From Streptosporangium carneum (GTDB taxonomy: Bacteria; Actinomycetota; Actinomycetes; Streptosporangiales; Streptosporangiaceae): a DNA stretch of 64,000 nt. Shown here piece by piece: positions 4,538-39,400 of the stretch (positions are counted from its first letter, which is position 1; every line of letters begins with the position of its first letter). Below the pieces are notes generated by a model. The model did no database searches, was not told the origin of the DNA, and saw nothing but the letters and a program-made list of their open reading frames with translations. A program made the translations under genes and the position numbers. The DNA is taken from assembly GCF_027922005.1 (NCBI RefSeq), contig NZ_BSEV01000011.1:1-64000 (forward strand), written 5' to 3'.

Positions 4538-5678
4538 CCTCACCGATCCCACGTTCTGGGCCGAGGACGACGCGTACACGATCCTGGACGAGATACGCCG
4601 TGAGGGCGCGGTCCAGCGGCACGAGTCGGCCGAGGAGGGGGTGCTGTGGGCGGTGCTCACCCACCGCGACGCCCTCGCGGTGCTCGGGGACGCGCGCTCC
4701 TTCAGCTCGCAGGGCGGCTCTCTGCTCGGCACCGGCGACGGGCCGCCCGCGGGGGCGGGGAAGATGATGGCGCTGAGCGACCCGCCCAGGCACCGCGCGT
4801 ACCGGGAGCCGGTCGCCCCGTTCTTCTCCGCCCGGCACGCCGCGCGCCTGGAGGAGCGCGTCCGCGAGCTGACCGAGCAGGTCGTCGAGCGGCTCCTGAT
4901 CCGCGAGAAGATCGACTTCGTCAGGGACATCGGGGCGATCGTCCCGCTCACCGTCATGTGCGACCTCATGGGGATCCCCGCGGAGGACCGCGACGAGGTC
5001 ACGGCCATGTGCGACCAGGCGTTCCTCGGGCACAACCCGGCCGAGCGCCGCGCCGCCCACCAGCGGCTCCTGCCGTACCTGATCCAGCTCGCGATGCAGC
5101 GTCGCGAGGAGCCGCGTGACGACATCATCAGCGCGCTCGCCGCCTCGCTCGAACTGGACGAGGTCGTGCTGAACTGCGACAACATCATCGTCGGCGGCAT
5201 CCAGACCGTACGGCACACCGCCGCCATGGCGATGCTCTCCCTGATGCGGAACGCGGACGCGTGGCGGGAACTGCAGGAGAAGGCCGACCAGAAGGTCGCG
5301 ACCGAGGAACTGCTCCGGTGGACCTCGGTCGGCCTCCACGTGCTGCGCACCGCGAAAACGGACGTGGAACTCGCCGGGCAGCGGATCAGCGCGGGGGACC
5401 GGGTCGTGGTGTGGACCCCCGCGGCCAACCGCGACGCCGCCGTCTTCGAGGACCCCCACCGCCTCGACCTGGCCCGGCATCCCAACCGGCACATCGCCTT
5501 CGGCTGGGGCGAGCACTACTGCATCGGCGGCCCGCTGGCGCGGACCGAGCTCAGGGTGCTGTTCACGGTGCTGTCCACCCTCGTGGCCGAGGTCGAGCCG
5601 CTCGGCGCGCACGAGTACAACCAGTCCATCATCAACTTCGGGTTGGACTCCTTCCCGGTCCGTCTCCACCGGAGGTGA
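4518..5678 (+). CDS. Cytochrome P450, probably acting on a carrier-bound amino acid
   Basis: A 386-residue soluble P450. The heme-binding motif is FGWGEHYCIGG with the proximal Cys335, and the K-helix ExxR is in EELLRW. The I-helix reads VGGIQTVRHTAAM: the usual acidic residue before Thr is replaced by Gln, and the following R-H pair is reminiscent of P450s that hydroxylate carrier-bound amino acids (GNETxRH type). Position directly behind a free A-T protein supports beta-hydroxylation of the loaded residue; this is inference. The gene overlaps the A-T gene by 20 bp and has its Shine-Dalgarno GGAGAGG (4504-4510) in that gene's repeat tail. No ferredoxin is encoded nearby; the ferredoxin at 48870 belongs to another operon. 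Confidence 0.93.
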   Translation: MLLDTYDLTDPTFWAEDDAYTILDEIRREGAVQRHESAEEGVLWAVLTHRDALAVLGDARSFSSQGGSLLGTGDGPPAGAGKMMALSDPPRHRAYREPVAPFFSARHAARLEERVRELTEQVVERLLIREKIDFVRDIGAIVPLTVMCDLMGIPAEDRDEVTAMCDQAFLGHNPAERRAAHQRLLPYLIQLAMQRREEPRDDIISALAASLELDEVVLNCDNIIVGGIQTVRHTAAMAMLSLMRNADAWRELQEKADQKVATEELLRWTSVGLHVLRTAKTDVELAGQRISAGDRVVVWTPAANRDAAVFEDPHRLDLARHPNRHIAFGWGEHYCIGGPLARTELRVLFTVLSTLVAEVEPLGAHEYNQSIINFGLDSFPVRLHRR

Positions 5679-5682
5679 CGCC

Positions 5683-6831
5683 GTGTGGAACCCGGAGGCC
5701 CACGCGACGCGGGCGAACGGCGTCTCGGCTCTCCTGTCCCTGGCCGGGGCGTTCCGCGACGTCGGCTTCACCGAGGCGGAGACGGTTCGCGCGCTCTCCG
5801 CGGAGGACGCGGCGGACCTGCTGAGCAACGCGGCGTTCTACGCCTTCTGCTCGGCAGGGCAGGTCGCCGAGCTGGTCACGACTCCGGCGGGTGTCATGGT
5901 CCAGCTCTTCGTGCGCAACGGCGACGTCGCGCGGGACCGTTACGAGCGGGTCGTTCCCGCCCCGACGCGCGAACTGCTCGCGACGCTGGGGCTGGTCTCG
6001 TCCGACGGGGACACGGTGACGTCCGAGGTCTCCGTCTCGCCGGGCCGCTCCATGTACTTCCTGTCGGACCAGCTGTTCAGAAGCGACGCGCGTGTCGCGA
6101 TCGCGAACAGGTCCACGCTGGTCATGCCTCCGCACGCCTCAAGTTTCGCGCTGCTGGACAACCTCGGCGCCGTGAGCGGGAAGCTGGTCGACGTCGGTTG
6201 TGGATGCGGCGTCCTGTCCCTGGTGTTGCGGGAGCGCTGCTCGTCGGTCGTCGGCGTCGACCTCAACCCGAGGGCGGTCGCGTACTCCCGGGTCAACGCC
6301 GTGGTCAACGGGGTCGAGGCCGGCTTCGGCCTGGCGGACCTCAGGGGGGACCTTGACGTCGGCAGGCTCGCCGACCACCTGGTGTTCAACAGCCCGACCG
6401 GTCCGGGGCACCACGAGGAGGCGGAGATCGGCTGGATGACCGCTCAGGACGCGCTCGGGCTCGTGGTGGACACCATGCCGGGAGTGCTCCGCCCCGAGGG
6501 GGCGGCCGAGGTGCTGCTGATCGTGGAGGTGCCGGAGGACCGGTCGTCGGCGACCGAGCTGGTGCGGAGCTGGCTGCCCCCGGGCACCAGGGCCGACGTG
6601 GTCGAACTGCGCGACTCCCCGCTGGCCGCCTCCCCGCAGGCGGTGGCCGGAGGCAGGCTCGCTCCGGGCTGTCTGCTGGCGGACGACGCCCAGGAGGCGG
6701 TGCGCCTGATCGACCACCTGCGCGCGAACCGGATCCGCGAGGTGGTGCCCGCCCTGGTGACCCTCACCAGGACACGGCCCTTCCCGTCCGGTCGCGAACC
6801 GTCCTCCCGGACGACCGCCGCCCGGTCGTGA
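5683..6831 (+). CDS. SAM-dependent methyltransferase of the MTS/HemK-like type
   Basis: A 382-residue class I methyltransferase. Residues 1-150 form an N-terminal domain of unknown role. Motif I is LVDVGCGCGVL from about residue 168, followed by the acidic end of strand 2 in VVGVDLNPRAV. The segment at residues 235-240 reads FNSPTG, in the place of the (N/D)PPY loop of N-methyltransferases such as HemK, RsmC and RlmG, so the polar-ring signature is only partly kept. GTG start with a good GGAGGTGA at 5671-5678, four bases after the P450 stop, making it the last gene of the NRPS operon. It may methylate the peptide or a precursor, most simply at nitrogen; the target cannot be told from sequence. 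Confidence 0.85.
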   Translation: MWNPEAHATRANGVSALLSLAGAFRDVGFTEAETVRALSAEDAADLLSNAAFYAFCSAGQVAELVTTPAGVMVQLFVRNGDVARDRYERVVPAPTRELLATLGLVSSDGDTVTSEVSVSPGRSMYFLSDQLFRSDARVAIANRSTLVMPPHASSFALLDNLGAVSGKLVDVGCGCGVLSLVLRERCSSVVGVDLNPRAVAYSRVNAVVNGVEAGFGLADLRGDLDVGRLADHLVFNSPTGPGHHEEAEIGWMTAQDALGLVVDTMPGVLRPEGAAEVLLIVEVPEDRSSATELVRSWLPPGTRADVVELRDSPLAASPQAVAGGRLAPGCLLADDAQEAVRLIDHLRANRIREVVPALVTLTRTRPFPSGREPSSRTTAARS

Positions 6832-6968
6832 CCGCTCGTCGGAGAACCGCCGCCGGACGGCGGACCGTCCGCTCACGGTCGTGAACCGTCCCCGCCCGTG
6901 ACGTGCCGGGACCCGTCGCGGCCTCCCACGGCCTCTCGTGTTCCCCTGTGTCCTCCCGTGGTTTTCCC

Positions 6969-6996
6969 GGGGCTCCCCACCGCGGTGGGGAGCCCC
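6969..6996. terminator. Perfect 28-bp palindrome between convergent genes
   Basis: Arms 6969-6981 (GGGGCTCCCCACC) and 6984-6996 are perfect inverted repeats around a central GC. It lies between the end of the methyltransferase gene and the end of the MFS gene on the other strand, so it can stop transcription from both sides. There is no T-run, as is common in actinomycetes. Confidence 0.8.
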
Positions 6997-7003
6997 GCCG
7001 TTC

Positions 7004-8191
7004 CTACACGGTCGCGAGCCGTGGAGCCCTGCGGAGCAGTACGGCGCCGGAGAGCGTCAGGACCGCGCAGCACACGGCCAGCAGGACGCGGTAGTCGACC
7101 GCGGCGATGAGCGCCGCGCCGAGCGCGATGGAGATCGTCTGCGGCCCGATCATGGACAGGTCCGCCGCGGCGGCGACCCGGCCGAGGACCTCCTGCGGCG
7201 TCGAGCGCTGCCACGCCGTCGTGTATCCGACGACCAGCCACGGAACGCCGCAGCCGATCAGCGCGAATCCCGCGATCACCACGGGCAGGCTCGAGGCGGC
7301 CAGCAGCGCCGTGCCGACGGCGCCGAGCAGAAGGCCCGCGCTGACCGTCCTGGCCTCGCCGTACCTGCGGATCATTCCGGCGACCGTCAGTCCGCCGCAG
7401 ATCCCTCCCGCGCCCTGGACCGACATCAGCACCCCGAAGAACGAGGTGGGGAGGCCGAGGCCGAACTCGATGACCGCGAAGTCGACGGTGTCCAGGAGTC
7501 CGATGACCGCGAAGCTGGCGGCGACGGCCGCGGTGGTGAGAGCCGCGAGGGGGGTGCGCGCGATCTGCCGGGCGCCCGCCATGATCTCCCGCCGGAACGG
7601 CTCCCGCTCCTGGGGCGGTGTGGGCGCGGGCTCCTCGACGCGGAGGGTGAGCAGGACGACGACCGCGACGGCGAAGGTGAGGGCGTCGATCACGGCGAGC
7701 GCGTGGCCGCCGATCGCGGTGTAGACGGCGGCGCCCGCCAGCGGGCTGAGCAGGCGCGTCCCCTCGCCGATCGTGCGGATCGCGGCGTTCGCGCCCGCCA
7801 GGTCCTCACCGGGCAGGATCAGCTTGACCAGTCCGATCTGGGCGGGCCGTAGCAGGGCGAAGGCGACGCCGTACCCGAAGGCGACGGCGTAGACGATCCA
7901 CAGGTCGGCCTCGGAACGCACCCCGAGCAGGGCCAGCACCCCGAGCCCCGCGACGGTGTTGACCACGATGAGCAGTGGCCGGCGGCGTAATCGGTCGACG
8001 AGGTGTCCGGCGAAGGGGGTGAAGAACACCGGTATGGAGAGGAAGAGGAAGACCACTCCGGCCGCGGAGTTCTCGCCGGTCAGGTCCTTGGCCCAGATGC
8101 CCAGGGAGAGGTAGAGCGCGCTGTCTCCGAAGGAGCTGAGCGAGTGGCCGGCCAGGAGTCTGCGAAACCGTGGATCGGCGAGTGCGCTCAC
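7004..8191 (-). CDS. MFS transporter (probable drug efflux)
   Basis: A 395-residue membrane protein of the major facilitator superfamily with about 12 hydrophobic segments. It opens with ALADPRFRRLLAGHSLSSFG, typical of the MFS_3-like exporters of actinomycetes, and has the loop motif FAGHLVDRLRRRPLL between helices 2 and 3 (a relative of GxLaDrxGrr). GTG start overlapping the regulator's stop by four bases (GTGA), so both are made from one mRNA under the operator at 8789-8812. An export role for a small toxic compound fits this regulator-pump arrangement; the substrate is unknown. Convergent with the NRPS operon, so a role in self-resistance to its product is possible but not shown. Confidence 0.9.
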   Translation of the reverse strand: MSALADPRFRRLLAGHSLSSFGDSALYLSLGIWAKDLTGENSAAGVVFLFLSIPVFFTPFAGHLVDRLRRRPLLIVVNTVAGLGVLALLGVRSEADLWIVYAVAFGYGVAFALLRPAQIGLVKLILPGEDLAGANAAIRTIGEGTRLLSPLAGAAVYTAIGGHALAVIDALTFAVAVVVLLTLRVEEPAPTPPQEREPFRREIMAGARQIARTPLAALTTAAVAASFAVIGLLDTVDFAVIEFGLGLPTSFFGVLMSVQGAGGICGGLTVAGMIRRYGEARTVSAGLLLGAVGTALLAASSLPVVIAGFALIGCGVPWLVVGYTTAWQRSTPQEVLGRVAAAADLSMIGPQTISIALGAALIAAVDYRVLLAVCCAVLTLSGAVLLRRAPRLATV

Positions 8192-16504: not shown

Positions 16505-17758
16505 GTGGGGCAGTCGTGGGCCGAGTTGCCGACGTGCCGTGTCGTGTGGGTGCGCGAGACGAATTCCGCGACGGTCACGGCGTCGGCGGACGCGTTGCCC
16601 GAGGGTTTCCCCGCGATATTCACCTGTGCCGTGCGAACGGGGCGAGTCTCGGGGGATTCGGGCAGAGGGCGGACCGTGGGGGAGACGGTCGCCGACGTGC
16701 TCGACGAGCTGGAAGAGGCCGTCGTCGGGCTCTTTCCCGCCTGGCTCCCCGGCGCGGAGGGCGTCGTGGGCGCGGGGGGCGTCGCGCTGCTCGCCGTACG
16801 CGAACTCGTGGGGCGGGCCGTGCCGGGCCGCCGCCACCTCGTCCCCTTCCTGACCGGCCTCGCCGTGAGGTCCCTGGCGGGCACAGCGGCAGGCACAGCG
16901 GCGGGCACGATGGCGGGCACAGGGGCGGGCCCGGTGTCCCGTGGCCGTCGCCCCGGCGTCGCCGAGGCGCGCGCTGAGGGGCTGGCTCTGGCGTTCGCCG
17001 CGAGCTTCGGCCGTCCCGGCGCGTCGCTCCTCGTCCAGGTGCCCGAGGGGTTGTCCCCCGTGGAGGAGGAGACGCTGGTCTCCGCCGGTGAGTGGCTCGC
17101 CCAGCGGGGAGGGTTCGGGGTCTGGCTCACCGGCGCCGCGCCGGTCGCCGTGGACCGGATCAGGACGGTCACCGTACGGCCCGCCCCGCCTCCGCGCCCT
17201 GTGTCGTCCTCGCACCCCGTGCCTTTCCCCCGCCCCGCCCCGCCTCCGCGACCTGCGCCGCCCCCGCGCCCCGTGTCGTCCACGCGGCCCCCGCCGGTCG
17301 GTTCCCCGTCTTCGGGTTCCCCGCCCGCCGGTTCCCCGCCCGCCGGTTCCCCGCCCGCCGGTTCCCCGCCCGTCGGTTCCCCGCCCGTCGGTTCCCCGGC
17401 CACGGCGGGGCGGCCGCATCCGGCCAGCCTCGTGGAGTCCGCGCTGGAGCGGGCGCTCAGTTCCCACGCCTGGGCCGAGGGACGGGCCTGGAACCAGACC
17501 CACCAGCCGCATCCGCTGGCCAATCCCATCCGGGTGGACCTGATATGGCGGGACGAACGCTGTGTCGTCGAGCTCGACGGTCCCGAGCACCGCACCCCGG
17601 GCAGGCTCGCCGACGACCGGTCGCGGGACGAGCGGCTCGAAAAGGACGGCTACGCGGTTCTGCGTCTCACCAACGAGCGCGTCATGGCGGACATGCCGGC
17701 CGTACTCCGTGAGATGAGACGGTTTCTCCAAGCTCACCGTGGCACGTACGAAGGATAG
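16505..17758 (+). CDS. Proline-rich fusion protein with C-terminal DUF559 (Vsr-like) nuclease domain
   Basis: A 417-residue protein in three parts. Residues 1-225 are an unrecognised domain with Ala/Gly repeats and a segment LLVQVPEGLSPVEEETLVSA followed by GVWLTG, which looks like the core of a degenerate P-loop fold but has no Walker A. Residues 225-302 are a Pro-rich linker (PPPRP runs, then GSPPA/GSPPV repeats). Residues 305-417 match DUF559: VDLIW with Asp345, CVVELDGPEH with Glu356 and Asp358, then DRSRDERLEKDGYAVLRLT. DUF559 proteins are PD-(D/E)XK nucleases related to the mismatch endonuclease Vsr, so DNA cleavage is likely. GTG start after AAAGGAAA. First gene of a three-gene operon with a winged-helix-like protein and a double ATPase. 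Confidence 0.78.
   Translation: MGQSWAELPTCRVVWVRETNSATVTASADALPEGFPAIFTCAVRTGRVSGDSGRGRTVGETVADVLDELEEAVVGLFPAWLPGAEGVVGAGGVALLAVRELVGRAVPGRRHLVPFLTGLAVRSLAGTAAGTAAGTMAGTGAGPVSRGRRPGVAEARAEGLALAFAASFGRPGASLLVQVPEGLSPVEEETLVSAGEWLAQRGGFGVWLTGAAPVAVDRIRTVTVRPAPPPRPVSSSHPVPFPRPAPPPRPAPPPRPVSSTRPPPVGSPSSGSPPAGSPPAGSPPAGSPPVGSPPVGSPATAGRPHPASLVESALERALSSHAWAEGRAWNQTHQPHPLANPIRVDLIWRDERCVVELDGPEHRTPGRLADDRSRDERLEKDGYAVLRLTNERVMADMPAVLREMRRFLQAHRGTYEG
17300..17404 (+). repeat. Seven 15-bp repeats encoding a GSPPA linker
   Basis: Seven units of GGTTCCCCGCCCGCC type, in frame, encode GSP-x-x repeats that separate the N-terminal domain from the nuclease domain of the DUF559 protein. Units 2-4 are identical and 5-6 share one change, which shows recent expansion. 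Confidence 0.95.
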
Positions 17759-17762
17759 TGAT

Positions 17763-18533
17763 ATGTCGGAAAAAGGGCTTTCTTTCACTGAGATAGCGGT
17801 TTTGGTGGTTTTGGCGGTCGAGGGGGAGGAGGTCTCCAATCCCGACCTCACAAAGCGTCACGGTGTGGTCCTCGACAAGAAATCACGCCTGAAGCTGAAC
17901 GACCTGAAGCTCATCGAGAGCCGCAAACAGGGGCGTGCGCTTGTCCACGTCCTGACCGACGCGGGCTGGGCCAGGGTGTCCGAGGAGATCGAGTCCCCCA
18001 TTCCCACACCCCGTGGCGCGGCCGGGGCGATGAGCCTCGCCTTGTTGTCCCTGCTGCGTGGCTTCCTGGCACGGAGCGGGCAGCGGTTCACCGACCTCTT
18101 CCTCTCCACGGGCGCCTCGGCCACGGGTGACCCGGTCCTTTCCACGGGCGACCCGGCCACGGGCGACACGGCCACGGGCGACACGGCCGCCCTTGCTCCC
18201 GAGACCGAAGCCGTCCTTTCCCCCGAGAGCGAGCCCGGGGACGTCACCGCTTCCCTCGAAGGCGAGCCCGGAGACGTCACCGCGCGCATCCGCGCCGCCT
18301 ACGCCGAACTGGCCGTCGAACCAGGCGCGTGGGTCAGCCTGGCGCGGCTGCGTCCGCTGCTCGGCGGCTTCGCGAGAGCGGAGGTGGACAGCGCCCTCAA
18401 GGGGATGATCCACCTGCCGGAGGTGAGCATCGTGCCGGAGAACAACCAGAAGGCCCTCACCCCGGAGGCCAGGGCGGCGGCGGTGGTCATCGGCGACCAG
18501 GACAAGCACCTGATCTCGATCGAGGCGCGATGA
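17763..18533 (+). CDS. Double winged-helix-like protein linking nuclease and ATPase genes
   Basis: A 256-residue protein. Residues 1-80 look like a winged helix: FTEIAVLVVLAVEGEEVSNP, then LTKRHGVVLDKKSRLKLNDLKLIES and a wing ending in ALVHVLTDAGWARV. Residues 85-175 are a low-complexity linker of STGD/ATGD and EPGDVTA repeats. The C-terminal 80 residues (WVSLARLRPLLGGFARAEVDSALK then NNQKALTPEARAA) look like a second winged helix. It has no enzymatic motif, so a DNA-binding or adaptor role is likely. The ATG at 17763, after AAGGA and four bases past the nuclease stop, is preferred over a GTG at 17739 inside that gene. Its stop overlaps the ATPase start (ATGA), so the two proteins are probably made in fixed ratio and may form one complex. 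Confidence 0.75.
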   Translation: MSEKGLSFTEIAVLVVLAVEGEEVSNPDLTKRHGVVLDKKSRLKLNDLKLIESRKQGRALVHVLTDAGWARVSEEIESPIPTPRGAAGAMSLALLSLLRGFLARSGQRFTDLFLSTGASATGDPVLSTGDPATGDTATGDTAALAPETEAVLSPESEPGDVTASLEGEPGDVTARIRAAYAELAVEPGAWVSLARLRPLLGGFARAEVDSALKGMIHLPEVSIVPENNQKALTPEARAAAVVIGDQDKHLISIEAR

Positions 18534-21500
18534 CCGGCAGGGATCTCGAAGCGCTCCAGAGACTGAGGTTCAACTGGGCCGAGGGTCCCGAGGACGTGTG
18601 GAGCCCCTCGAGCTTCCACGTGGAGGGACTGAACCACACCGTGGAACGCGGTGTCCTCGGCGGGGTGGCCGACGTGGTCGGCGGCGGCGCGACCAGCCCG
18701 ATCGGCCTGGTCCTGCGCGGACAGCGAGGCTCGGGCAAGACCCACCTGCTCGGCTGGGTCCGCGAGAGGATCCAACAGGAGAGCGGTTACTTCTTCCTGG
18801 TCGGCCTGCTGGACGCGCGGACCTTCTGGGAGAGCACGCTGGTCTCCATGCTCGACGGTCTGTCCCGCGATGGAAACGAGGGGGAGAGCCAGCTCAAGGT
18901 TCTGCTGCGGCGTCTGTCCGAGCTGACCGAAATGCCGCGCTGGGTGCAACGTGAGGTGATCGGGAACCGCTCGGTGACACGTGAGGGGCTCGACGCCTTC
19001 GTCGACGGAGTGCGCCGGCTCAACCCCCACGTCGGCAAGGACACCAAGGACACCCTGCGCGCGCTGGTTCTGCGCGCGGGAGCCGACTACGCCGCGCAGG
19101 ACGTCGGCGACGGCTTCCTGTCCGCCCTGCCCGAGGAGGAGGTCGGCGAGCGCGCGGCCTGGGGGATCCGGCAGCTTCCGAAGACGCCGCAGGAGATCGT
19201 CAAGGACCTGTCCCGCCTCATCGCGCTGACGGGCCCCTCCGTCATCGCCGTCGACCAGATCGACGTGCTCGTCGCACAGTCCACGCTCGCCGGTGAGAGC
19301 GCCGCCGCGCACGACTGGCACGACCTGATCGTGGTCGACCAGGTCGCGGGCGGGCTGATGGCCTTGCGCGAGATCACCCGCAGGACTCTGACGATCGTCT
19401 CCTGTCTGCCGCACACCTGGACCCTCATCGAGAAGTTCGCCACCGACACCGCGCGCGACCGGTTCAGGGCGATGCCCTTCCTCAAGCCGCTCCCCGACGC
19501 CGAGGCCGCCCGCGCCCTCGTCGAGAAGCGGTTCACCGCCCGGTTCGCCGAGCTCGGCTTCGAGCCGCCCTATCCGACCTGGCCGGTACGGCCGACCGCG
19601 TTCGACGACGCCAGCGAGTACACCCCCAGGCAGCTCCTGATCAAGATCGACGCGCACATCGCGGCCTGCCTGGACGACCAGGAGGCGCGGGAGCTCGAGC
19701 GCCTCGACCAGAGCGCCGACCGGAGTTCGACGCTCCCAAGGGAAACCGTCGACCTCGGTGTCCTCGACGCCCGTTTCGCCGAGCTCAGGCGTCAGGCGCA
19801 GGTGGCCGACGCCCTGAAGGCCGACATCGAGGACGCCGTGATGCCCGCCCTGCTGGCTGCGGGGCTGTCGGCCTGGATCGACGGGCTCGGGGAGGCCGGA
19901 CGCCGTTTCAGCGTCGACCCGCCGCCCAGCAGCAAGCCTCCGCTCCACGCGCGCCTGCGGCTCACCCTGGACGAGGAGACCGAGGACGAGGCGCACTGGG
20001 CGTTCCGCGCCATCGCCGCCGAGCACCCGATCGCCGCGCTCAGCCGCCTGCGCGCCGCCTCGGTGACGGCGGGGCTGACCGCCGAGGTTCCCCGGCGGCG
20101 GCTGTTCGTGCTGCGCTCGGTGCCCTGGTCGAAGGGCCCCCGTACGGTCGCGGCCGTCGCCGCGTTCGAGCAGGCGGGCGGCAGGGTGTTCGCGATGGAG
20201 CCAGAAGATCTCAGGGTCCTGGCCGCGCTGCGGCAGTTGTACGCGGACAACCCGCCGAACCTGCGGGCCTGGCTCGCCGCGCGGCGGCCCGCGCAGGAGG
20301 TCAAGCTGCTGAGCGAGGCCCTCGGCGACGCCGAGCCCACGCACGTCGAGCCCGTGGCGGCCGCAACGGCGTCCCAGGAGCCCGTGGTCGCCGCCGCCGC
20401 GGTCGTCGAGTCCACGCGTGCCGTGTCCGTGGTCGTCGGGTCCGGACACGGCGAGGCCGGAGGCGCTGAACCCGAGCCTTCGGAGCCCCCGCCTTCGGAG
20501 ACCGTGGTCGTCGAGCCCCCATACGCCGACTCCGTGGCCGCCGCGCCCGTGGTCGTCGAGCCCGTGACCGCCGAACACTCGACCGTCGAACCCCCGGTGA
20601 CCGAACACGCGACCGTCGACCCTCCTGTGACCGGACCCGCGGCCGTCGAGTCCGGTGCGGCCGGACCTGGAACCACCGGATCCGAGATCACCGGGCCCCA
20701 GGTCGTCGACCCCGAACTGGTCGAACCTGAACTCGTCGAAGCGGTGAGCGCCCCGCCGTACATTCCGCTGGGGAGAACCATCTCCGAAGGGCGGCCCGTC
20801 GGGATCGAGCTGGAGGCGCTTAGGAAGCACACCGTGATCTTCGCCGGGTCGGGGTCGGGGAAGACCGTCCTCATCCGCAGGCTGGTCGAGGAGTGCGCGC
20901 TCCAGGGGGTCTCGGCGATCGTGCTCGACCCGAACAACGACCTGGCCCGGCTCGGGGACGGCTGGCCCGAGCCGCCGTCGCAGTGGGGGGAGGGCGACGC
21001 GGAGAAGGCCGCCGACTACCTGGCCTGCACCGACGTCGTCGTCTGGACGCCGCGCCGTGCCGCGGGACGGCCGCTCAGCTTCCAGCCCCTGCCGGACTTC
21101 GCGGGCGTCGTCGACGACCCCGACGAGTTCGGCACGGCGGTCGACGCCGCCGTCGCCTCGCTCGTGCCGCGCGCCAAGCTCGACTCCAGGACGGCCAAGG
21201 CCCAGCTCGGGCAGGCCGTGCTCAGGGAGGCCGTCGCGCACTACGGACGCGGGGGCGGGCAGGGGCTGCCGGGCCTCATCGACCTGCTGGCCGCTCTGCC
21301 GGACGGCGTGAGCGGACTCGGCAACGCCGAGAGGATCGCCGCCGACCTGGCGCAGACCCTGAAGGCGGCCATGGTCAACGACCCGCTGTTCGCCGGTGCG
21401 GGAGTGCCCGTGGACCCCGGGGTCCTGCTCACCCCGCCGCCGGGGAAGCGGGCGCGGGTCTCGGTGATCAGCTTCGTCGGCCTGCAGTCGGACGAGCAGC

Positions 21501-21979
21501 GCCAGGGCTTCGTCAACCAGTTGCAGATGGCGCTGTTCGCCTGGATCAGGAGGCATCCCGCCGGTGACCGTCCGCTGGGCGGCCTGTTCGTGATGGACGA
21601 GGCGCAGACCTTCGCGCCGTCGGGCGCGATGACCGCCTGCACACAGAGCACGCTGGCACTGGCCGCGCAGGCCCGCAAGTACGGTCTCGGCCTGGTGTTC
21701 GCCACCCAGGCCCCCCGGGGGCTGCACAACCGCATCCCGGGGAACGCGGCCACCCAGTTCTTCGGCCTGCTCAACGCGCCCGCCCAGATCGAGGCCGCCA
21801 AGGAGGTGGCCAGGTCGAAGGGCGGCGACGTCTCCGACGTCTCCCGGCTGACGACGGGCCAGTTCTACCTGGCGGCCGAGGGGGCCTCGTTCGCCAAGAC
21901 GCGGACCCCGCTGTGCCTGACCCACCACCCCAAGGCCCCCCTCACCGCGGAGGAGGTCGTCGCCAGGGCGAACAGCTGA
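18530..21979 (+). CDS. Double ATPase: N-terminal AAA-like ATPase fused to C-terminal HerA/DUF87-like ATPase
   Basis: A 1149-residue protein with two nucleotide-binding modules. Module 1 (about 30-420) has Walker A GQRGSGKTHL (64-71) and a Walker-B-like strand SVIAVDQIDVLV in which Gln243 follows Asp242 where Glu is usual; it resembles STAND/AAA-type or BrxC/PglY-like ATPases. Residues 420-600 are helical. A Val/Pro/Glu/Thr-rich linker spans about 605-745. Module 2 (about 750-1149) is HerA-like: AGSGSGKTVL (Walker A 773-779), LDPNNDLARL, Walker B GGLFVMDEAQTF (Asp1023-Glu1024), then FATQAPRGLHNRIPGNAATQ. HerA-family proteins are hexameric DNA translocases that partner with nucleases in repair and in phage defence (HerA-NurA, Sir2-HerA). 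Its operon partners here are a DUF559 nuclease and a winged-helix-like protein. Confidence 0.85.
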   Translation: MTGRDLEALQRLRFNWAEGPEDVWSPSSFHVEGLNHTVERGVLGGVADVVGGGATSPIGLVLRGQRGSGKTHLLGWVRERIQQESGYFFLVGLLDARTFWESTLVSMLDGLSRDGNEGESQLKVLLRRLSELTEMPRWVQREVIGNRSVTREGLDAFVDGVRRLNPHVGKDTKDTLRALVLRAGADYAAQDVGDGFLSALPEEEVGERAAWGIRQLPKTPQEIVKDLSRLIALTGPSVIAVDQIDVLVAQSTLAGESAAAHDWHDLIVVDQVAGGLMALREITRRTLTIVSCLPHTWTLIEKFATDTARDRFRAMPFLKPLPDAEAARALVEKRFTARFAELGFEPPYPTWPVRPTAFDDASEYTPRQLLIKIDAHIAACLDDQEARELERLDQSADRSSTLPRETVDLGVLDARFAELRRQAQVADALKADIEDAVMPALLAAGLSAWIDGLGEAGRRFSVDPPPSSKPPLHARLRLTLDEETEDEAHWAFRAIAAEHPIAALSRLRAASVTAGLTAEVPRRRLFVLRSVPWSKGPRTVAAVAAFEQAGGRVFAMEPEDLRVLAALRQLYADNPPNLRAWLAARRPAQEVKLLSEALGDAEPTHVEPVAAATASQEPVVAAAAVVESTRAVSVVVGSGHGEAGGAEPEPSEPPPSETVVVEPPYADSVAAAPVVVEPVTAEHSTVEPPVTEHATVDPPVTGPAAVESGAAGPGTTGSEITGPQVVDPELVEPELVEAVSAPPYIPLGRTISEGRPVGIELEALRKHTVIFAGSGSGKTVLIRRLVEECALQGVSAIVLDPNNDLARLGDGWPEPPSQWGEGDAEKAADYLACTDVVVWTPRRAAGRPLSFQPLPDFAGVVDDPDEFGTAVDAAVASLVPRAKLDSRTAKAQLGQAVLREAVAHYGRGGGQGLPGLIDLLAALPDGVSGLGNAERIAADLAQTLKAAMVNDPLFAGAGVPVDPGVLLTPPPGKRARVSVISFVGLQSDEQRQGFVNQLQMALFAWIRRHPAGDRPLGGLFVMDEAQTFAPSGAMTACTQSTLALAAQARKYGLGLVFATQAPRGLHNRIPGNAATQFFGLLNAPAQIEAAKEVARSKGGDVSDVSRLTTGQFYLAAEGASFAKTRTPLCLTHHPKAPLTAEEVVARANS

Positions 21980-37060: not shown

Positions 37061-37609
37061 TCAGACGGGCAGTACCCGCAGGGCGGGATGGTTGACCGAG
37101 TTCAGGTACAGCTTGTCGGTGCCGTGTTCCTTCTCCAGCTCCAGGACGAACCGGTAGCGGTAGAGCCCAGGCCGGGCTTCGCTCATCACCGCCCCGGCCC
37201 AGTAGTAGTAGACGGCGGTGTACTTGTCGCGCATCCGGTCGGGAGCGCCGTAGACCTTGAGCTCGGTCATGATCCGGCGTTCGGCGACGTCCTCCTCGTC
37301 ACCCTTCTCGATGTCGAGGAAGACCAGATTGTTGATCTTCGGCATCGGAGGCCAGGTGCCGTCAGGACGGCGGTGCATGTCGATCGGGCGGATGATCCAG
37401 TTGATCACCTGACCCTGCTTGCAGACGGTCTCCAGATGGTCGGTGCCCTGCCCGACCCCGCCGACGCTGTTGTCCATCATGTAGAGGCAGCCGTCCAGGG
37501 ACTGCGTCGCGGCGGCCTTCTCCATGTCGACGAGGGTCACCACGTTCAGCTGGACGGAGTTGAGCTGGCCACGGTCGACGAAGTCCGCGGCCTCGTACGC
37601 CTGGGTCAT
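37061..37609 (-). CDS. AidA/PixA-like protein, paralogue 4 of the operon
   Basis: A 182-residue protein. Its N-terminal layout (LNVVTLVDMEKAAAT, LDGCLYMMDNS, GQGTDHLETVC, GQVINWIIRPID) matches the AidA/PixA inclusion-body protein pattern, a beta-rich fold with a conserved aromatic (W) after a Gly-Gln turn. The C-terminal part (YYYWAGAVMSEARPGLYRYR) is shared with the other three paralogues. ATG start coupled to the upstream gene by ATGA. PixA forms crystalline inclusions in Xenorhabdus, and AidA is quorum-controlled in Ralstonia; neither has a firm biochemical role. Last gene of the six-gene operon. Confidence 0.7.
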   Translation of the reverse strand: MTQAYEAADFVDRGQLNSVQLNVVTLVDMEKAAATQSLDGCLYMMDNSVGGVGQGTDHLETVCKQGQVINWIIRPIDMHRRPDGTWPPMPKINNLVFLDIEKGDEEDVAERRIMTELKVYGAPDRMRDKYTAVYYYWAGAVMSEARPGLYRYRFVLELEKEHGTDKLYLNSVNHPALRVLPV

Positions 37610-38064
37610 CGGCCTTCCTTTCCCTCGTCGGAGGGACCGGCCAGGGCCGGCCGGGCGGTGGGGGAGAACGGCGTGCTGACGGTGCCGAGCAGGAACGAGA
37701 GCCGGTACGGGACCGGTTCGGTGAGGTCCTGCTTGACCTCGGCGGTCCAGAACACGATGTCGGTGCCGGGGTAGACCTTCCGCGTGGGCTCGGCGATCCG
37801 CGGGTCGATCTCGATGTCGGTGAGGGCCACGTAGGTCTCGCACTCCAGCGGGAGCACGTTCCACAGCAGGGTGTCGCCCTTGCGGACCCGGCTGCGCAGC
37901 TCAGGGGTGCCGAAACCGGTGGACCCGGCGGCCTTGTTGGTGTCGTAGAGATAGAGGTTGTCGTCCAGGTTCTCCGACGCCAGTGCGGCCACGGGGTCGA
38001 CCACCGCGGTGATCGTCACGGGCCGGACGGGCCGGCGTTCTGTCTGTCTGGTCCTCGGGGGCAT
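37606..38064 (-). CDS. AidA/PixA-like protein, paralogue 3
   Basis: A 152-residue paralogue beginning with a basic tail (PPRTRQTERRPVRP), then VTITAVVDPVAALASENLDD, a YLYDTNKAAGSTGFGTPELR turn and GDTLLWNVLPLE. The core ends in PVPYRLSFLLG, equivalent to the PYRYRLSLKL of paralogue 1. It lacks the 30-40 residues that paralogue 4 has before this strand. A 39-bp gap separates it from the gene upstream; its stop overlaps the next gene. Confidence 0.65.
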   Translation of the reverse strand: MPPRTRQTERRPVRPVTITAVVDPVAALASENLDDNLYLYDTNKAAGSTGFGTPELRSRVRKGDTLLWNVLPLECETYVALTDIEIDPRIAEPTRKVYPGTDIVFWTAEVKQDLTEPVPYRLSFLLGTVSTPFSPTARPALAGPSDEGKEGR

Positions 38065-38103
38065 GCGGATCCTCCGTTCGAAGTTGTTCCGGCTCGGGCC
38101 GGG

Positions 38104-38886
38104 TCAGCCGGCGGCGGGGACGGGCGGAAGGGGGAGCACGCCCAGTCCGGCGCCGGTGAACCCGTTGCGCTTCGGATCGCTGATGATCTTGAGGCTGGAC
38201 TCGCAGGTCAGGTCCACGGACTCCCAGACCAGCTCGTCGTTCCGCTCGACCAGCTCGTGCAGCTGGACGTGCACCGTGTACGCGTAGACCCCAGGCCTGC
38301 TCGTGTCCACGGTCGCGGCCCAGTACCAGCCGTCGTAGATCATGTCCGGCGATCCGTACTGGGCCGGGTAGATGATCTTCTCGGTGACGGCCTCGCCGGT
38401 GATGTCGGTGATCACCGGAGCCGGGTAGTTGTAGGCCTCGGTGCTGCTCGTGGCCTTGCCGGTGACGTCCAGCAGCTTGGCCGGGGTGAGGCCGCGCCCG
38501 CTCTCCGCCTTGCGGGCGCGCTTGCCGACCCGCCGCTGCAGTTGCTTGACCTCGGTTTCGCCCACGCCGCCCTCGGCGCTGAGCGAGGCCAGTTCCTCCA
38601 GCGTGCGCCGGTCCTCGGCGCGTGCCTGCTCGGCCAGGTAGTTGCGCGGCACCGTCGGGGGGATCGACCCCAGCGCCGCGGGCAGCCAGTTCAGCACCTG
38701 CTCGGTCGCCTGCGACCCGTCGAGGAAGTAGGTGCCGGGCACGATCGTTTCCAGCTGCTCGGTGCCCACCCCGGACGAGCCGAGGAACTTCATGTTGTCG
38801 AACCAGTAGGTGTTGCCGTCGAGCGATCGCGTCCTGAGCGCGTTCTCGACGTCGAAGAGCACGATGATCCCGTGTTGCTGGGCCAT
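38104..38886 (-). CDS. AidA/PixA-like protein, paralogue 2, with a charged helical insert
   Basis: A 260-residue paralogue, the longest of the four. It starts IIVLFDVENALRTRSLDGNT, keeps the GTEQLETIVPGTYFL turn, and ends with WYWAATVDTSRPGVYAYTVH. Between these, about 75 residues form a charged, probably coiled-coil segment (AEQARAEDRRTLEELASLSA) absent from the others. This insert could mediate assembly. ATG start; 25 bp downstream of paralogue 1. Confidence 0.65.
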   Translation of the reverse strand: MAQQHGIIVLFDVENALRTRSLDGNTYWFDNMKFLGSSGVGTEQLETIVPGTYFLDGSQATEQVLNWLPAALGSIPPTVPRNYLAEQARAEDRRTLEELASLSAEGGVGETEVKQLQRRVGKRARKAESGRGLTPAKLLDVTGKATSSTEAYNYPAPVITDITGEAVTEKIIYPAQYGSPDMIYDGWYWAATVDTSRPGVYAYTVHVQLHELVERNDELVWESVDLTCESSLKIISDPKRNGFTGAGLGVLPLPPVPAAG

Positions 38887-38911
38887 GAAACCGCCTTTCG
38901 CAGAACGTGGC

Positions 38912-39400
38912 TCACACGCGCAGCAGCGCGGGCGAGTCGATGTGCAGCACGCTGTTGGGTCCGTCGTGGAGCTTGAGGGAGAGCCGGTACCGGTACGGGA
39001 CGCCGGGCGTCATGTCGTAGGGCACGACGCCCTCCCACACCAGCAGGTCGTGGTTGTCGTGCCCGTTGGAGGCCGTGGCGTCGGCCCCCGTCCATGGCAC
39101 GGGAACGGCGGAGGGCTCCACCGGATACGGCGGCACGGTCTCGTCGGCAGGGGGCGGGACGGGCGCGCCGGACAGGAACTCGATGGCGTGGATCTCGACC
39201 GGGGTCTGCACGTCCACGTGGATGGGCGTCCACTGGACGACCTGTCCCGGGACCACCGCCGTGACGAGGTCGGGGGTTCCCTGGTGCTGGCTTCCCGCCG
39301 CGCTGTCGTCGACCAGCGAGAGGTTGCCGTTGTGCAGCGTCCGTTCGGACAACGCCCCGACGGCGTCGACCATCACGACGATGCTGATCCTGTCTTTCAT
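38912..39400 (-). CDS. AidA/PixA-like protein, paralogue 1
   Basis: A 162-residue protein and the clearest member: ISIVVMVDAVGALSERTLHN, LSLVDDSAAGSQHQGTPDLV, GQVVQWTPIHVDVQTPVEIH, and YRYRLSLKLHDGPNS near the end. The start at ATG 39400 has GGGAGG with four bases spacing; an upstream ATG would add nine residues but lacks a ribosome-binding site. It follows the ligase gene by 48 bp and leads the block of four paralogues. Confidence 0.7.
   Translation of the reverse strand: MKDRISIVVMVDAVGALSERTLHNGNLSLVDDSAAGSQHQGTPDLVTAVVPGQVVQWTPIHVDVQTPVEIHAIEFLSGAPVPPPADETVPPYPVEPSAVPVPWTGADATASNGHDNHDLLVWEGVVPYDMTPGVPYRYRLSLKLHDGPNSVLHIDSPALLRV

Follow-up and report, generated by a model that had tools for sequence, protein, structure and literature searches.

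Operon Layout and Gene Calls

What might be the function of an operon in which a nuclease gene and the gene of a small protein precede that of a large double ATPase? The question is raised by three genes of Streptosporangium carneum, here called A, B, and C, that are located on the same strand at positions 16505-21979 of the window, that is, of the analyzed stretch of 64,000 nucleotides (contig NZ_BSEV01000011.1, positions 1 to 64,000). As argued below, the operon is probably a variant of a mobile immune system that is directed against invaders and occurs mainly in Actinomycetota, with B-C as the constant core and with A activated as the effector.

An earlier reading of the sequence alone (the sequence-only reading) had described a compact operon with a 4-bp gap followed by an ATGA overlap, and the gene coordinates were found to be as claimed (Table 1). 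A gene-calling script of our own recovered all three genes, with the highest score for C (478.6) and the lowest for A (50.7). The start assigned to A by the script (16676) is later than the GTG at 16505; several relatives, whose starts were taken from the same gene caller, can be aligned with A from the first residues onward. A promoter scan found none, and three terminator-like sites were counted, versus 1.6 expected. The long linkers reported for all three proteins are present and are encoded by tandem repeats of 12-36 bp, every period of which is divisible by three.

Table 1. Genes and protein domains of the operon, with window positions.
Feature	Position	Strand	Description
Gene A	16505..17758	+	GTG start, 417 aa; DUF559 (PD-(D/E)XK-like) nuclease, own N-terminal alpha/beta domain, proline-rich linker
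A N-terminal domain, residues 1-224	16505..17176	+	alpha/beta; AlphaFold mostly confident save 132-147
A nuclease domain, residues 303-412	17411..17740	+	DUF559, 3hrl match, invariant residues
Gene B	17763..18533	+	256 aa; 4-bp gap after A; two putative winged-helix-like halves, variable linker between
Gene C	18530..21979	+	1149 aa; ATGA overlap with B; AAA/STAND-type ATPase, alpha/beta middle domain, HerA/FtsK ATPase
C ATPase module 1, residues 36-382	18635..19675	+	Walker A 64-71; Walker B VDQID 241-245
C middle domain, residues 405-600	19742..20329	+	predicted ordered alpha/beta core 434-554, then predicted helices 558-597
C disordered linker, residues 604-739	20339..20746	+	repeat-built; pLDDT <50 nearly throughout
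C HerA/FtsK module, residues 740-1149	20747..21976	+	Walker A 773-779; Walker B D1023 E1024; R1049; Q1060

Domain Assignments of the Three Proteins

The description of A as a PD-(D/E)XK-type nuclease fusion was borne out by a Pfam match to DUF559 (residues 344-408, E 2e-11) and by a profile match to the endonuclease of PDB entry 3hrl (E 1.1e-11); the AlphaFold model has a mean pLDDT of 81.8. Residues D345, E356, D358, G359, H362, D371, R374, and D375 are invariant in all 80 aligned A proteins (those of more than 150 residues from our own gene calls), and in an alignment of 40 A proteins the majority of the invariant columns fall within the nuclease domain. Judged from its sequence, the nuclease appears to be active. 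Residues 1-224 are presumed to be the docking part. This N-terminal domain gave no Foldseek match at E ≤0.001 and no profile match to the other partner proteins described below. When all partners were compared with hhalign, no docking domain common to them was found: A reached a probability of at most 1.2% with any partner, and the best pair overall (15.4%) matched a P-loop with a P-loop-like protein.

Both P-loops claimed for C, at residues 64-71 and 773-779, are present, and the AlphaFold model (mean pLDDT 83.5) is ordered in three stretches, approximately 36-382, 410-597, and 744-1149. The HerA-like nature of the second module was confirmed by a DUF87 match (E 6.8e-9; DUF87 was found in 39/39 C members) and by Foldseek, with which the HerA-NurA complex 9x1m was the best structural match of the HerA half (E 1.1e-10). 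SIR2/HerA and other anti-phage HerA structures were likewise among the matches of C, and a likeness of the HerA half to the conjugation ATPase TrwB was seen in the structure search too. With PADLOC, chiefly the HerA half was recognized, as mad8 or HerA; the mad8 model matches C in all 39 members, in the window protein at residues 745-1117. Module 1 was matched by AAA_16 in 39/39, by NACHT in 35/39, and by ORC-CDC6-like models in 6/39 members (E up to 0.01), and its assignment to the AAA/STAND class is supported at the level of sequence profiles.

The key ATPase residues of C are retained across all partner classes. K70 is found in 156 of 157 C proteins (the first P-loop is gapped in the remaining row), and position 71 is Ser instead of Thr in six of the 157; D242, Q243, K778, D1023, E1024, R1049, and Q1060 occur in 157/157, and R311 is likewise unchanged. 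The Asp-Gln that had been noticed in place of Asp-Glu in the first Walker B is indeed present. That it should be an oddity of the window copy was rejected, since every one of the 157 C proteins has it, and it is a family trait. The middle domain of C is a candidate inactive nuclease plus wHTH; positions 482-483, the sole acidic positions checked in it, are variable among the 157 C proteins. PF24389 was considered as a parent family and discarded, with partial matches only, in 3/60 genomes, and none at the C gene.

For B, the alignment pattern is compatible with two winged-helix-like halves. Winged-helix models of Pfam gave weak matches only, in few of the 39 B members, and among the library models none confirmed a winged-helix fold. 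Of the double winged helix that had been claimed, the pattern thus stands and the fold went unconfirmed; a winged-helix-like pair of domains is plausible. An assignment of B as an EF-hand protein, suggested by a calmodulin profile match (best E 1.2e-5), was rejected: the match was attributed to a chance helix pattern, because such a pattern also suits a winged helix and because Pfam lists no EF-hand in the 39 B proteins.

Conservation of the B-C Pair and Classification of Its Partners

Genes were called at 182 loci with our own script, the starts and splits of which may err; after removal of three loci without C by our cut-off and of 13 duplicates, 166 distinct loci remained. In 163 of them B immediately precedes C, and the three exceptions are truncated at contig ends. 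Partner labels were assigned by Pfam for example proteins only and by phmmer similarity to these examples at the other loci, and were distributed as follows: A 91, trypsin-like 19, ParA/CATASP-like 17 (15 of them with TIR), AIPR 12, DUF4365 3, none 21, and cut 3. These class sizes are not frequencies, since 80 loci (L129-L208) were hand-picked from family and order matches, and 80 of the loci are the top 80, out of 225, for the window protein and hence biased to class A. The A label comprises 89 loci assigned by rule together with L039 and L074, in which C is broken in our own gene calls. A fixed A-B-C trio was rejected on the basis of these counts: of the conserved trio in the sequence-only reading, the conserved operon with its constant B-C stood, and the constancy of A, present in 91/166 only, did not. 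The stable unit is the B-C pair, and its partners are exchangeable.

The positions of the genes are regular. The B-C gap is -4 bp at 90/158 loci and the A-B gap is at most 20 bp at 79/82; many partner genes are separated from B or C by no more than a few bases, and for many of the A, ParA, and AIPR genes the stop and start overlap with those of B or C. The ParA/CATASP-like gene occupies position -2 on the same strand (17/17), the TIR gene position -3 in 15 loci (two further matches lie elsewhere, in the single locus L067), and the AIPR gene position +1 (12/12). The trypsin-like gene (trypsin-WD40-like, divergent) is found upstream on the opposite strand (19/19); its label is based on a Trypco1 neighbor (13/19), a GxSG-like motif, and our own reading, and the best 25 of its 42 Pfam rows are WD40 families. 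In the TIR proteins E86 is kept in 15/15, at what we take to be the place of the TIR catalytic residue. The examples on which the labels are based gave the following Pfam matches: Trypco1 and WD40 repeats (L077); PDDEXK_1, pPIWI_RE_Y with REase, pPIWI_RE_Z, PIWI, and AIPR (L081); AIPR (L090 and L174); TIR (TIR_2) and CATASP (L099); DUF4365 (L120); and NaeI (L170).

In a FastTree phylogeny of 157 C proteins, from which nine loci with short or broken C were left out, the trypsin-like loci are united in a single clade (support 100), which is placed beside class A rows; two changes are required for ParA/CATASP and seven for AIPR, and the total is 19, versus 66.7 in shuffles. A quick IQ-TREE analysis, limited to 68 hand-picked rows, requires two changes for class A, and a single class A clade was rejected, at p 0.038 only. 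The trees support an exchange of partners around the constant core, with modest strength as regards the replacement of A by the trypsin-like partner.

Several individual loci deserve mention. At L081 (816-14931) a pPIWI_RE island (PDDEXK_1, Y with REase, Z, and PIWI) lies directly upstream of B-C, with AIPR downstream, and the same arrangement was matched by similarity at L097. At L170, where B-C is divergent and has a DUF4365-like gene upstream, a gene for a NaeI-type restriction enzyme (5634-7208) lies downstream of the pair. A protein of 700-743 aa, with relatives at L060, L078, and L151, is encoded directly upstream of B-C at L159 (12120-14222) and L164 (5566-7797); the L159 protein gave a weak TPR match only (Pfam), and this protein is a possible further effector. 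Genes near B-C at L110 (1088-5120) resemble, by eye, the SMC-like Wadjet ATPase set. C is split or short in our own calls at L039, L060, L069, L074, L081, and L165; these are candidate broken genes, and some may be caller errors. The L165 gene had an uninterrupted frame in the family genome search.

Distribution and Genomic Setting

Among 120 related genomes, the N-terminal half of C was matched in 29 (E 1e-5; two are fragments) and A in 26 (E 1e-12; three cover the nuclease part only). Full-length A was found in 23 genomes, all of them among the 29 and each time with A immediately before C on one contig, and in 0/91 genomes without C (Fisher p 2e-19, which ignores relatedness and is therefore no true probability). 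A lack of co-occurrence in other genomes, named in the sequence-only reading as a refuting outcome, was not observed. In five of the 23 full-length matches there is one in-frame stop each, representing either the gene end or damage. A search of 72,556 plasmid records gave three with C; the nuclease part of A was matched in these same three, adjoining C.

In the genus, 9/16 genomes (own included) are positive, with nine loci in five contexts. Broader genome searches, in which few candidates per genome were scored (two in phylum and order, five in family), gave counts that are lower bounds: at least 5/395 others besides the own genome in a draw from the phylum, at least 56 of 298 genomes of an order, and, in the family to which one relative belongs, at least 94 of 150 genomes, a number of which carry two or three copies of C at separate places. 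The figure of 94 of 150 is high for an accessory system and counts against the immune reading. An Acidobacteria MAG (L040) is the only positive among 297 genomes of its phylum and could be contamination.

Contexts were counted as separate if no outer neighbor was common at 50% identity, and by this rule, under which short contigs inflate the number, the class A loci fall into 48 contexts and the ParA/CATASP loci into only 3, so that the latter set could reflect an inherited neighborhood. The operon is thus not confined to one conserved core locus, in keeping with the sequence-only reading; it is accessory and patchy. Of the five genus contexts, the window shares one with relative L037; the left flank is common to the window and genus relative G013 (the M20-type peptidase gene is 90% identical), so some copies have not arrived independently of one another. 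No empty site was found via this left flank, which is common to one relative that is operon-positive as well, or via the right flank (ABC transporter), which matched only the own genome at E 1e-60. Phage and viral collections yielded no copy at the sensitivity of the search; this, like the lack of a common docking domain among the partners, counts against the immune reading.

Four neighboring minus-strand genes at 37061-39400 of the window share a motif by eye (like LDG.LY..D....GSSG) and perhaps represent one expanded family. At two loci, the ribosomal S10 operon contains A-B-C as an insert that separates rplN from rpsQ (L106, 10242-15240, from annotation, adjoining a VapBC-type pair; L112, 7506-12369, read by eye). 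At L107 (10234-15243) A-B-C lies in order on a 1.57-Mb mobilizable megaplasmid of the alphaproteobacterium Methylobacterium aquaticum, the clearest case outside Actinomycetota.

The two S10 inserts, the megaplasmid, and the resemblance of the HerA half to TrwB would also suit a function in the transfer, segregation, or maintenance of integrated elements instead of immunity. Such a function is unlikely, as the partners are conflict proteins and as nothing with the look of an integrase, relaxase, or replication protein was seen by eye among the 45 largest neighbor clusters listed, which are unannotated. It is rather improbable that B-C is a stress-signaling ATPase with its regulator and that neighbors such as A are regulated cargo with no direct physical role: B does resemble a winged-helix protein, and the 21/166 loci with B-C and no recognized partner fit this explanation and count against the immune one, but the overlap of stop and start that couples B or C to many of the A, ParA, and AIPR genes and the restriction of full-length A to places beside C in the 120 genomes argue against it.

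Proposed Mode of Action

The interpretation as a defense system in the sequence-only reading is partly supported, by the conserved operon, the active-looking nuclease, the HerA motor, the patchy accessory distribution (9/16 genus genomes), and conflict genes beside related copies (TIR, AIPR, and pPIWI_RE neighbors). In the course of events that we infer, B and C would recognize invading DNA, or its transfer or replication; B, with its winged-helix-like pattern, would probably bind DNA and help in the choice of target. C would probably form a ring through its HerA half, as HerA homologues suggest, with its N-terminal AAA/STAND-type ATPase as a switch or loader. When the core meets invading DNA, ATP would be used by C to activate the partner encoded alongside. 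In the window this partner is the DUF559 nuclease A, which would then cut DNA, either that of the invader or indiscriminately.

HerA-type defense proteins are commonly portrayed, for instance in the text of PMC10853773, as pumps delivering DNA to a nuclease. In the sequence-only reading the HerA part was suggested to drive the nuclease; as a sole function this is doubtful, because B-C also adjoins non-nuclease partners. One type of invader signal might be passed to effectors of different chemistry (nuclease-like DUF559 and AIPR, NADase-like TIR, protease-like trypsin-WD40), and this variety tentatively favors signal transmission over the simple feeding of DNA into a nuclease. It is conceivable, and is put forward tentatively, that B-C is a general sensing or trigger module that has been re-armed more than once, its HerA half serving as a signaling ring and not merely as a DNA pump. 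If a HerA protein retains its ATPase residues although the genes beside it vary from nuclease-like to TIR and protease-like, its motor could be a reusable alarm, and natural versions of B-C with different partners offer a direct test of which part recognizes the invader.

Relation to Known Systems

The claim that no described system has this composition was too strong: the text of PMC10853773 (2024) predicts a class of like composition, the Orc/CDC6-coupled HerA/FtsK capture systems, with a proposed anti-invader role. As described there, the class combines an Orc/CDC6 AAA+ protein, an inactive nuclease domain, HerA/FtsK, and an active nuclease, in a subset together with a small multi-wHTH protein; when not associated with HerA, related Orc/CDC6 genes occur as fusions with STAND NTPases, pentapeptide repeats, or TIR. 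The operon fits this plan in outline, sharing a AAA/STAND-type ATPase module, HerA/FtsK, the presumably active nuclease, and the mobile neighborhoods; B is a putative counterpart of the small multi-wHTH protein of the subset, and the middle domain of C is a candidate for the inactive nuclease domain. Two features were found: a HerA/FtsK ATPase with sensor-1 Gln and upstream Arg finger (DUF87 in 39/39, R1049 and Q1060 in 157/157, Foldseek), where the reading of R1049 as the finger and Q1060 as the sensor is modeled on the description of DndH in PMC10853773, and, for class A loci only, an apparently active REase (DUF559 motif kept in 80/80). In contrast to the operon, the passages of PMC10853773 with which it was compared name no DUF559, no constant B-C pair, and no B-C-type pairing with TIR and ParA/CATASP, trypsin-like, AIPR, or pPIWI_RE genes. 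No description of a constant B-C pair with exchangeable partners was found in those passages or in open-literature titles and abstract beginnings (subscription papers, preprints, and supplements being outside this scope), and it is this pair that may be new here, the capture class itself having been predicted already in the text of PMC10853773.

HerA-DUF4297 and SIR2-HerA share with the operon a HerA-type motor and an effector, but the effectors are others and B is absent; a scan of the three window proteins found no DUF4297 or SIR2 match. To our knowledge, the HerA proteins of these two systems carry no second, N-terminal ATPase. HerA-NurA, a core archaeal repair pair, likewise combines a HerA domain with a nuclease partner, but the nuclease is of another family: no NurA match was found in A at E up to 1, so A is not a NurA-family partner. 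DNA repair or end processing after the manner of this pair, in which C would unwind or pump broken ends and A would resect them, is very improbable: its archaeal complex is the best structural match of the HerA half, but the nuclease is DUF559, the distribution is patchy, multi-site, and sometimes multi-copy, and TIR, trypsin-like, or AIPR genes in the place of A fit repair poorly.

As a presumed anti-invader immune system, the operon may also be compared with MADS, which includes other mad proteins besides mad8. The mad8 model matches the HerA half of C, whereas the N-terminal half lies outside the match, and in a scan of A, B, and C no mad model matched A or B. A BREX-related capture system, as described in PMC12839542, unites an Orc/Cdc6-type ATPase with HerA and a DNA-binding protein and is similar in composition to the operon, in which the Orc/Cdc6 type of module 1 and the DNA binding of B are putative. 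DUF6079/BrxC-type ATPases and PglZ gave no match in A, B, and C of the window at E up to 1. Among the 39 B proteins, one is BrxC-like (E 6e-5).
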